DNA of 31,471 bases. It comes from a virus. The stretch is from positions 1-31,471 of IMG/VR virus record IMGVR_UViG_3300034013_000057; one strand, written 5' to 3'. The translations under genes and the position numbers were made by a program. This document shows, one piece after another, positions 1,360 to 31,471 of this stretch; within the stretch, counting starts at the first letter, position 1; each line of letters begins with the position of its first letter. The notes beneath the pieces are model-generated. The model saw only the letters and a list, made by a program, of their open reading frames with translations. It searched no databases and had not been told where the DNA came from.

Positions 1360-1386
1360 GGGTAGTTTAATAGCTACCCTTTTTTT
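1360..1386 (+). terminator. Rho-independent terminator
   Basis: Stem GGGTAG (1360-1365) pairs with CTACCC (1374-1379) around an 8-base loop and is followed by seven T. It ends the NinG-like transcript and lies directly before the promoter at 1418-1446. Confidence 0.85.
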
Positions 1387-1394
1387 ATGAACTG

Positions 1395-1413
1395 TGTTAA
1401 AGTTATGTTAAAA
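1395..1413 (+). promoter_or_regulatory. Upstream direct-repeat element of promoter 1
   Basis: TGTTAAA occurs at 1395-1401 and again at 1406-1412, exactly 11 bases (about one helical turn) apart. The same paired element occurs upstream of the two other host-type promoters (7171-7188 and 12148-12165). It may be a regulator site or an UP-like element. Confidence 0.55.
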
Positions 1414-1417
1414 AAAA

Positions 1418-1446
1418 TTTGTGTATACTTTTTTGATATACATTTG
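1418..1446 (+). promoter_or_regulatory. Bacteroidetes-type promoter 1 (early)
   Basis: TTTG at 1418-1421, a 17-base spacer, then TACATTTG at 1439-1446. This matches the Bacteroidetes primary sigma consensus (TTTG around -33, TAnnTTTG around -7). It follows a terminator and precedes the first ORF of the next operon by about 28 bases. Confidence 0.8.
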
Positions 1447-3528: not shown

Positions 3529-3819
3529 ATGCAATTAACAAACAAAATTCAGGAACTAAAAATCGAAGCAGCACGTATGGAATTGCTTTGGTGTGATAAT
3601 AGAGAAATGCTGCATTACTTTAGAACATTACAGGCTGATTTACATTTAATTGAAAGATTGTGTAATACAGAATCTAAATTTGATTACATTGCGCTCGAAG
3701 AAGTAATAAACGGATTACAAGATAAAGATGAAACACTAACTGATATAACTGTTAACTTTCAAATTAAACCAATACAACGTGAACGAAAAGAAGCACGTAT
3801 AACCGCTAAAATGTTTTAG
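3529..3819 (+). CDS. Hypothetical protein, 96 aa
   Basis: It starts one base after the ATPase stop. The sequence is mainly helical and charged (KIQELKIEAARMELLW, then LQADLHLIERLC), with a basic C-terminus (IQRERKEARITAKMF). Its immediate linkage to the ATPase suggests a helper in replication, but there is no motif to support that. Confidence 0.65.
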   Translation: MQLTNKIQELKIEAARMELLWCDNREMLHYFRTLQADLHLIERLCNTESKFDYIALEEVINGLQDKDETLTDITVNFQIKPIQRERKEARITAKMF

Positions 3820-3874
3820 GTTTACTTTGATACAAAAAATTTGCAATTTTGCATTTACTTTAAAACAATAATTT

Positions 3875-4090
3875 ATGATTTTATTTCTTGTTTGCTTTTG
3901 CTTAATTTGTTTAATAGTATTTCAGTTTGTAGACTGCGAAATTATTATAACCCCAATTAAAGGTGTAATGCTTGGTGCATTATATAACGATGATGATTTT
4001 GAAGATGAAGTAGAACATACTATACAAGTGCTTTTATTTGTAATTTCATTTTCTTTCGTATGGACAACAACAAATGGCTCAACCAAGTAG
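3875..4090 (+). CDS. Small two-helix membrane protein, 71 aa
   Basis: A very hydrophobic N-terminus (residues 2-18, ILFLVCFCLICLIVFQF) could be a signal anchor. A second hydrophobic stretch at about 50-62 (IQVLLFVISFSFV) follows an acidic loop with DDDFEDEVE. It overlaps the sigma-factor gene by 31 nt. The upstream gap (3820-3874) has an AT-rich leader with TTTAAAACAAT but no clear promoter. Function unknown. Confidence 0.6.
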   Translation: MILFLVCFCLICLIVFQFVDCEIIITPIKGVMLGALYNDDDFEDEVEHTIQVLLFVISFSFVWTTTNGSTK

Positions 4091-4602
4091 CGCAACATCA
4101 CAATGAATGGATTAAGATAATTAATTCGTTTGGTGAATATGACTATGCAGAAGATATTGTTCAGGAAACATACATAGCTTTGTACAAGTATGCAGATGCT
4201 ACAAAGATTATAGATGCTTCAGGCAATGTCAGAAAAGGATATGTATTTTTCACTTTAAAAAGTTTATTCTTTCAGTATTATAATAAGAAAATGAAAGTAA
4301 ATAAAGTTTCTATAGATGAACAGTTTACTTTATTTGATGATTCTAATTTAGATGAACACAATGCTTATCACGATATTTGTTTATTGATAGATGAAGAAGT
4401 ACAAAATTGGCATTGGTTTGATGAAAAGCTATTTAAACTTTATAGGGATTCGGGAATGTCTATGCGTGATATAGCAAAAGGAACAAACATTAGTTTAATT
4501 TCAATTTTTAATTCAATCAAAAACTATAAAGAAATTTTAAACACTAAATTTAATAAAGATTACCAAGATTACATTAATAACAATTATAACGGAATATACT
4601 AA
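4060..4602 (+). CDS. Phage RNA polymerase sigma-70-like (ECF-size) factor
   Basis: The 180-aa protein has the two-domain plan of a small sigma factor. Region 2 lies at about 12-75, with YAEDIVQETYIALYKYA and the aromatic-rich VFFTLKSLFFQYYNKK that would contact the -10 element. Region 4 lies at about 122-160, with a helix-turn-helix (EKLFKLYRDSG, SMRDIAKGTN, SLISIFNSIKNYK). Such proteins redirect host RNA polymerase to phage promoters. It is encoded in the early region, while three late genes share a leader motif unlike the host promoter, so a role in late transcription is a reasonable inference. It overlaps the preceding membrane protein by 31 nt and couples to the HNH gene. Confidence 0.75.
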   Translation: MDNNKWLNQVAQHHNEWIKIINSFGEYDYAEDIVQETYIALYKYADATKIIDASGNVRKGYVFFTLKSLFFQYYNKKMKVNKVSIDEQFTLFDDSNLDEHNAYHDICLLIDEEVQNWHWFDEKLFKLYRDSGMSMRDIAKGTNISLISIFNSIKNYKEILNTKFNKDYQDYINNNYNGIY

Positions 4603-7170: not shown

Positions 7171-7188
7171 TGTTAAAGTTTTACTAAA
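7171..7188 (+). promoter_or_regulatory. Upstream direct-repeat element of promoter 2
   Basis: TGTTAAAGTT at 7171-7180 is identical over 10 bases to those at 1395 and 12148. The second half-site, TACTAAA at 7182-7188, is diverged but keeps the 11-base spacing. Confidence 0.5.
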
Positions 7189-7194
7189 ATGTAT

Positions 7195-7221
7195 TTTGTA
7201 TTAATAACTTGTTTATATTTG
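7195..7221 (+). promoter_or_regulatory. Bacteroidetes-type promoter 2 (early)
   Basis: TTTG at 7195-7198 and TATATTTG at 7214-7221, an exact TAnnTTTG, separated by 15 bases, which is shorter than usual. It follows a terminator and precedes the ATG at 7247 by 25 bases, so it probably drives the second early operon. Confidence 0.68.
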
Positions 7222-12003: not shown

Positions 12004-12153
12004 ATGACATATGGACAATTCATAGCTACAATACAATGCTATATACATCACGTTAAAGATGTAGAAGTAGATATAGCTTTACCAAGAAACATTGGTGAAA
12101 TAAAGCTAATGAAGAAAATGTACGAAATAGCAGCAGCATACTTAAAATGTTAA
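12004..12153 (+). CDS. Small protein, 49 aa, after terminase
   Basis: Begins immediately after the terL stop. The sequence is MTYGQFIATIQCYIHHVKD, then GEIKLMKKMYEIAAAYLKC, mixed hydrophobic and basic with a terminal Cys. Tight placement supports translation; no function recognised. Confidence 0.5.
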   Translation: MTYGQFIATIQCYIHHVKDVEVDIALPRNIGEIKLMKKMYEIAAAYLKC

Positions 12154-12166
12154 AGTTTTGTTAAAA
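12148..12166 (+). promoter_or_regulatory. Upstream direct-repeat element of promoter 3
   Basis: TGTTAAA at 12148-12154 and 12159-12165, 11 bases apart, as at promoter 1. The gap from the 10-base element to the TAnnTTTG box is 44 bases here against 33-34 at the other two, a difference of about one helical turn. Confidence 0.55.
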
Positions 12167-12179
12167 TTAACAATGAGTG

Positions 12180-12209
12180 TTGATAATGTAAAAAGTAGGT
12201 GTATATTTG
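12180..12209 (+). promoter_or_regulatory. Bacteroidetes-type promoter 3
   Basis: TTG at 12180-12182, a 19-base spacer and TATATTTG at 12202-12209, a full match to the host consensus. It lies 31 bases before the ATG at 12241 and would drive three small genes inside the otherwise late region. Confidence 0.8.
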
Positions 12210-12977: not shown

Positions 12978-13018
12978 TTTAATACAATTTCACATAAAAG
13001 TTATTATTAAATAAAAAA
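12978..13018 (+). promoter_or_regulatory. Candidate phage late promoter or leader, copy A
   Basis: TTTAATACAATTT (12978-12990), exactly 10 bases, then TTATTATTAAATAAAAAA (13001-13018), ending 4 bases before the ATG at 13023. The same two blocks with the same 10-base gap occur at 21328 and 23997. It follows a terminator, so a new transcript should begin near here. Confidence 0.55.
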
Positions 13019-13022
13019 CTTT

Positions 13023-21327: not shown

Positions 21328-21366
21328 TTATAACAATTTAAAACAACAATTATTAATATAAAAAAT
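21328..21366 (+). promoter_or_regulatory. Candidate phage late promoter or leader, copy C
   Basis: TTTATAACAATTT (21328-21340), 10 bases, then TTATTAATATAAAAAA (21351-21366), 6 bases before the ATG at 21373. It matches copies A and B in both blocks and in spacing. It would start a transcript for the scaffold and capsid genes. Confidence 0.5.
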
Positions 21367-21372
21367 TTTACT

Positions 21373-23996: not shown

Positions 23997-24037
23997 TTTA
24001 AAACAATTTAGACTTTTATTTATTATTTAATAAAAAA
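23997..24037 (+). promoter_or_regulatory. Candidate phage late promoter or leader, copy B
   Basis: TTTAAAACAATTT (23997-24009), 10 bases, then TTATTATTTAATAAAAAA (24020-24037), 4 bases before the ATG at 24042. It follows the terminator directly and is the closest match to copy A, differing at one base in the 18-base block. Confidence 0.58.
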
Positions 24038-24041
24038 TAGA

Positions 24042-27289: not shown

Positions 27290-27355
27290 AAGAAACATAT
27301 AAACCCAAAGAAAAGAACGTACAAAAATTACAATTATTTTTAAATAAAATAGAAA

Positions 27356-31000: not shown

Positions 31001-31443
31001 AATTAAATTCAGAAGGTTACCGGTTAATTACAAAATTTGAAGGTTTTAGTGCTAAACCATATTTGTGTTCTGCAAAAGTGCCTACGATTGGGTACGGGAA
31101 TTGTTACTATACAAATGGTAAAAAAGTAACTTTATTAGACAAACCAATTACAGAAGCAGAAGCGTTTGAAATGTTTAAAGAAATAGCTGATAGATTTGCT
31201 GATAAAGTAAGTAAGTTAGTTACCTATCCTATAAATCAAAATCAATTTAATTCTTTAGTTTCACTTTGTTACAACATTGGAGTAGCTGCGTTTCAATTAT
31301 CTACTTTGTTAAAAATGGTAAATGAAAACGCAAACAATCCAAAGATAAAAGACCAATTTTTACGTTGGAATAAAGCAGGTGGTAGAGTAGTACGTGGATT
31401 AACATTAAGAAGAAATGAAGAAGCATTTATATATTTTAGTTAG
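30997..31443 (+). CDS. Phage lysozyme (GH24, T4-like family)
   Basis: The muralytic endolysin cleaves the peptidoglycan glycan. In 148 aa the catalytic triad is visible with family spacing: E15 in KFEGF, C24 where T4 lysozyme has D20, and T30 in VPTIGYGN (E-x8-C-x5-T). The rest follows the family: INQNQFNSLVSLCYNIG and the closing GLTLRRNEEAFIYF. No signal peptide or SAR segment is seen, so release depends on the holin. It overlaps the holin-side gene by 4 nt and the spanin by 29 nt. The end is repeated at 1-97. Confidence 0.93.
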   Translation: MKLNSEGYRLITKFEGFSAKPYLCSAKVPTIGYGNCYYTNGKKVTLLDKPITEAEAFEMFKEIADRFADKVSKLVTYPINQNQFNSLVSLCYNIGVAAFQLSTLLKMVNENANNPKIKDQFLRWNKAGGRVVRGLTLRRNEEAFIYFS

Positions 31444-31471
31444 TTTAGTATTACTATCTTGTGGTTCAAGA
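31347..31471. repeat. Terminal direct repeat, right copy (circular map overlap)
   Basis: Identical over 125 bases to 1-125, so base 31347 corresponds to base 1. Closing at this repeat gives a circular map of about 31,346 bp. Confidence 0.93.
31415..31471 (+). CDS. Candidate u-spanin, N-terminal fragment across the circle junction
   Basis: The first 19 codons of the spanin gene described at 69-557 (MKKHLYILVSLVLLSCGSR), including the whole lipobox. The rest is at the left end because the circular genome was opened inside this gene. Confidence 0.9.
   Translation, partial: MKKHLYILVSLVLLSCGSR

Follow-up and report, generated by a model that had tools for sequence, protein, structure and literature searches.

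A direct repeat, TGTTAAA-N4-TGTTAAA, set in helical register with the TAnnTTTG box of host-type sigmaA promoters, is common to very many Bacteroidota phages and is not private to the phage analysed here, which carries it upstream of three promoters. Related half-sites occupy a fixed place at the promoter of the host kinase gene rprX. We give slightly better than an even chance to the reading, drawn from sequence comparison, that the element is bound by an OmpR/PhoB-family (winged-helix) response regulator of the host, RprY being the most likely one.

The phage and its three element-bearing promoters

The window, that is, the whole stretch of 31,471 nucleotides that was analysed, is a 31.5-kb virus record whose termini (1–125 and 31347–31471) overlap exactly over 125 bp, which indicates a circular or terminally redundant genome of about 31.3 kb. 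The named phages nearest in terminase sequence are Nonlabens phage P12024L (55% identity) and Riemerella phages. Among the products that the genome encodes are ERF and NinG, a protein with a DnaA C-terminal domain, an AAA ATPase and a protein resembling exonuclease VIII. In all probability the host belongs to the Bacteroidota, most likely to the Flavobacteriia. The record OQ791282.1, named "Shigella phage Henu10", showed a terminase match and coordinates identical to those of Riemerella phage vB_RanS_PT15, and its host name may be wrong.

The elements and promoters of the window are listed below. The gap is the number of bases from the end of the second half-site to the TAnnTTTG box.

1360..1387, + strand: terminator-like hairpin with T-run, directly 5' of element 1 (identified by eye from the sequence)
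1395..1412, + strand: element 1, exact TGTTAAA-GTTA-TGTTAAA; gap 26; same site in close relatives
1418..1446, + strand: promoter 1, sigmaA-type, TTTG-N17-TACATTTG; box at 1439–1446; heads the ERF/AAA operon
7171..7188, + strand: element 2, TGTTAAA-GTTT-TACTAAA, two mismatches; gap 25
7195..7221, + strand: promoter 2, sigmaA-type, TTTG-N15-TATATTTG; box at 7214–7221; heads the exonuclease VIII-like operon
12148..12165, + strand: element 3, exact TGTTAAA-GTTT-TGTTAAA; gap 36, one turn further; also in relatives
12180..12209, + strand: promoter 3, sigmaA-type, TTG-N19-TATATTTG; box at 12202–12209; after terL

The first-pass annotation had reported that TGTTAAAGTT is identical at 1395, 7171 and 12148, that a second half-site follows 11 bp on, and that a TAnnTTTG box lies downstream of each copy at distances of 34, 33 and 44 bases. 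All of this was confirmed in the sequence, the second half-sites being TGTTAAA at 1406, TACTAAA with two mismatches at 7182 and TGTTAAA at 12159, and the boxes starting at 1439, 7214 and 12202. The diverged fourth copy proposed at 3812–3829 did not hold, as about 7 of its 14 half-site positions are mismatched and no TAnnTTTG box precedes the next gene. The counterpart of element 2 in a relative (L111) is the exact TGTTAAAGTTTTGTTAAA. All three promoters have the layout of the Bacteroidota sigmaA promoter, with TAnnTTTG at -7 and TTG or TTTG about 15–19 bp upstream. The sigmaA-type consensus TAnnTTTG lies at -12 to -5 (PMC9723704), which places the half-site centres near -42/-53 or -52/-63. No such upstream element is among the main-text motifs SM1–SM6 of the F. 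psychrophilum transcript map (PMC9723704).

No TAnnTTTG box lies close to the late operon starts (13000–13022, 21340–21372, 24015–24041 and 27330–27355); what these have in common is an A/T-rich motif resembling TTATTATTWAATAAAAAA directly 5' of the ATG, which possibly represents late promoters of another sigma factor. The ORF at 4060–4602 weakly resembles sigma factors of RNA polymerase (phrog_1740, E 3e-4), and a comparable gene of P12024L is annotated with Sigma-70 region 2; its product is a candidate recogniser of the late A/T-rich motif.

Chance occurrence of the phased element

Chance or A/T-rich composition is an extremely improbable origin of these sites. Some counts agree with it: within the window the bare pattern with up to three mismatches is not enriched (30 matches against 34 expected) and is uninformative, TAnnTTTG alone is likewise not enriched (64 against 61 expected), and in 61 Bacteroidota genomes the exact element taken without a box is no more frequent than its mirror (14 against 18), host density alone being uninformative. 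The combination of element and box gives a different result. The phase classes for this count were taken from other phages, independently of the window. The exact element followed by an in-phase box was observed twice and appeared in none of 1,000 dinucleotide shuffles; when up to two mismatches were allowed, three such sites were observed, and the same number of dinucleotide shuffles had 0.058 on average and never more than 2. As described below, the element is phased in other phages while both control patterns are flat, and the chance explanation is thereby already refuted.

Spread and helical phasing in phages

A search of related phages for the element upstream of TAnnTTTG, which had been recommended at the outset, revealed that it is widespread and phased in IMG/VR. 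Among the matches listed for the pattern TGTTAAA-N4-TGTTAAA-N20-45-TAnnTTTG, the gap between element and box is sharply bimodal, 25–28 or 35–38 bp with almost none between. These two classes are one helical turn apart, and the window gaps of 26, 25 and 36 fall inside them. The reversed form, TTTAACA-N4-TTTAACA, is also common among the matches listed and is phased at 20–21, 30–32 and 41–43, so that the element occurs in either orientation; the version with a 10-bp period (N3) is, again among the matches listed, both common and phased. The N5-spaced version (at least 119 stretches in IMG/VR) and the mirror word (44 stretches) showed no phasing. Rayleigh statistics at 10.5 bp on dereplicated loci, among the matches listed, gave R 0.75 for N4 forward (n=108, p ~2e-27), 0.81 for N4 reverse (n=126, p ~3e-36) and 0.74 for N3 (n=70, p ~2e-17), where the p-values are indicative only since the sequences are partly related. 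The controls were not significant in the same statistics (R 0.08 for N5 and 0.13 for the mirror).

Loci gathered by terminase or ERF homology, independently of the element, gave the same picture. Downstream of terL the element was in register at 55 of the 67 loci with a box (34 with a gap of 25 and 21 with a gap of 35–37), and upstream of ERF at 44 of 48 (17 with a gap of 26–27 and 27 with a gap of 36). GTTAA is near-invariant in both half-sites of these relatives and the 4-bp spacer varies. Orthologous promoters of related phages switch between registers one helical turn apart, which strongly indicates that whatever binds there is confined to one face of the helix. The early suggestion of a factor on one face upstream of host-type promoters is thus strongly supported, by other phages as well as by host genomes.

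Bacteroides phage B124-14 carries the element four times, twice exactly and twice nearly so, and the gap is 36 each time. Exact copies were absent from most of the known Flavobacteriia phages fetched, and the element is therefore widespread in phages and not universal.

The element in host genomes and at rprXY promoters

The exact pattern with a box also occurs in genomes of Flavobacteria, Sphingobacteria and Bacteroidales, with gaps of 24–29 or 34–38 and only 3 of 121 at 30–33. The exact site is rare, being found in 3 of 41 Flavobacteriaceae genomes. Downstream genes encode regulators of the TetR, PadR, MerR and BlaI types, ABC transporters, two PHO4-type phosphate transporters and, three times, an RprX-like histidine kinase; they are diverse and form no obvious regulon. 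Upstream of PadR/TetR genes an inverted repeat often lies between the element and the -7 box (L132, L143, L147, L168, L175 and L122, L135, L162), an arrangement suggestive of an activator site joined to a repressor operator. PhoB, the best-known of the other candidate regulators, and the Pho box were rejected: no element with a box was found at 30 pstC loci with 1.5 kb flanks, from which a promoter further upstream could escape.

The kinase-gene (rprX) promoters of several lineages hold GTTAA repeats 10–11 bp apart, in runs of as many as four. Next to the kinase gene lies one for an OmpR-family regulator; the NCBIfam model that fits it best is RprY, with scores that fall short of the cut-off in the lineages tested. 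In two families the RprX/RprY pair is near-universal and mostly present as a single copy. In Flavobacteriaceae, one GTTAA-N6-GTTAA was found in 30 of 30 loci, always at the rprX promoter and nowhere else in 136.6 kb, and in 25 of these loci the gap to TAnnTTTG is 27, which is in phase. The pattern TGTTAA-N5-GGTTAAA-N24-28-TAnnTTTG had 23 matches in 23 of 41 Flavobacteriaceae genomes, all directly upstream of rprX, and control patterns had no matches across the same genomes. As this pattern was drawn from rprX promoters, matches there are expected, and the informative part is that none lies elsewhere. The rprX sites are imperfect (TGTTAAn/GGTTAAA), and their tolerance of 10–11 bp is that seen in phages, where N3 and N4 are phased and N5 is not.

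Outside this family, a 10-bp version is present at 14 of 30 Bacteroidales rprX promoters. The arrangement does not extend over the whole phylum: the pair with a 10–11 bp period was found at none of 29 Muribaculaceae rprX promoters (L511–L539), 22 of which have instead a TGTTAA pair with a 19-bp period whose first copy overlaps the -7 box TAATTTTG. Our guess is that the latter may be a repressing arrangement.

Similarity to known regulatory sites

In Firmicutes the WalR/VicR (YycF) box was described as TGTWAH-N5-TGTWAH and refined to TGTWAHA-N4-TGTWAHA, the sequence recognised by VicR of S. mutans (PMC4168254). TGTTAAA-N4-TGTTAAA is one instance of this consensus; two of the three window sites, together with those of the independently gathered relatives, have such repeats with a 4-bp spacer, and the spacing that is phased is one helical turn. 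For WalR of S. aureus, the effect of a site depends on where it lies and not on its orientation, and activation comes from sites upstream of -35 (PMC10746227). The similarity covers the half-site formula, the direct repeat, the 11-bp period, the freedom of orientation and, for activation, a location 5' of the core promoter, whereas the phylum, the TAnnTTTG sigmaA promoter, the regulator, the additional 10-bp period and the use at phage promoters differ. The first-pass annotation knew no named regulon of this kind; that stands for the Bacteroidota in the literature searched, but the type of site is known from Firmicutes.

For RprX/RprY the likeness lies in the rprX promoter, which holds the same half-sites in phase with TAnnTTTG, and the differences are the imperfect half-sites and the deviating Muribaculaceae. 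In P. gingivalis, binding of RprY to its own promoter was seen by EMSA, and the authors proposed that it acts as a repressor (PMC3646045). No RprY DNA motif or consensus was found in PMC3646045 and PMC6032018, and the PDB chains nearest to the RprY C-terminal domain are PhoB-family relatives only and are uninformative about its DNA specificity.

A precedent for two-component control of phage promoters by the host, as proposed here, is cyanophage S-PM2d, genes of which are under host PhoBR control (PMC10976474). The regulator and hosts are different, and there it is a nutrient-stress gene set, whereas here it is the core-operon promoters of many phages.

Candidate binding factors

The factor could be the host RNA polymerase itself, if alphaCTD bound both half-sites as an UP element and made very strong promoters without any regulator. 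Half-sites near -42/-53 and -52/-63, whole-turn phasing with the core promoter and use in either orientation are also expected for alphaCTD, and use by phages and by repressor-controlled host genes (TetR, PadR, MerR, BlaI) fits strong promoters. Yet the element consists of base-specific 7-mer direct repeats, the G of each half-site being near-invariant at loci gathered independently of the pattern, and its only strictly conserved place in Flavobacteriaceae genomes is a regulator's own promoter, which is not expected to be especially strong. Moreover, the readable Bacteroidota rRNA promoters have A-tracts such as AAAAAAAACTTCAAAAAA or AAAAAAAACTTCAAAAAACATTTG upstream of -33 and none has a TGTTAAA pair, a suggestive result as few genomes have usable rRNA flanks. 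We regard the UP element as an unlikely explanation. Of the protein and the UP-like element, both considered at first, a regulator is favoured by the half-site, the likeness to VicR, the rprXY promoters and the rRNA A-tracts, with the UP element kept as the main rival. In 16S rRNA upstream regions (L434, L435, L442 and L437) the A-tracts are about 10–11 bp apart (AAAAAACTTCAAAAAA type) and abut the -33 hexamer; they are likely the true UP element of Bacteroidota.

A phage-encoded factor is very improbable, even though this phage encodes the sigma-70-like protein of ORF 4060–4602, because the same geometry is found at host genes outside a phage context and in very diverse phages, and the host-type TAnnTTTG box is kept at every site. 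A small share of the probability goes to some other activator of the host, such as a different member of the OmpR family, that would have rprXY as just one of its targets. Bacteroidota have many two-component systems, with up to 28 kinase matches per genome, and Muribaculaceae rprX is without the standard pair although Bacteroidales hosts and B124-14 hold exact elements; the conserved placement at rprX points, however, to RprY itself.

RprY is the best candidate, as suggested by the conservation of the element at rprX, its phase with TAnnTTTG and the VicR-type site. Counting against it are the imperfect rprX sites, the deviation of Muribaculaceae, the matches below cut-off, the diversity of the host genes, the repressor proposal for P. 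gingivalis and the Flavobacteriia phages without exact copies. Under the RprY reading, two regulator subunits would sit head-to-tail on the two TGTTAAA half-sites, 10–11 bp apart and on one face of the DNA. From this position 5' of the -33 hexamer, the regulator would assist the host sigmaA RNA polymerase at phage early and middle promoters, acting as an activator rather than a repressor, and phage transcription would track the state of the host sensor. The host would autoregulate rprXY through the same arrangement.

Implications for Bacteroidota and their phages

This work describes a widespread, portable promoter module of Bacteroidota and their phages, and proposes a DNA site for RprY, a conserved regulator without a published motif in the two studies cited above. 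We suggest, as a tentative proposal rated somewhat below an even chance, that a phylum-wide design of Bacteroidota phage promoters ties early and middle transcription to one host system, RprXY. If this were true, phages would hold near-ideal copies of a site that is found in their hosts chiefly at the rprXY promoter, and phage genomes would reveal the as yet undefined sequence bound by RprY. Infection would then follow the envelope or stress state of the host, and many Bacteroidota phages may sense host physiology through a single host regulator.
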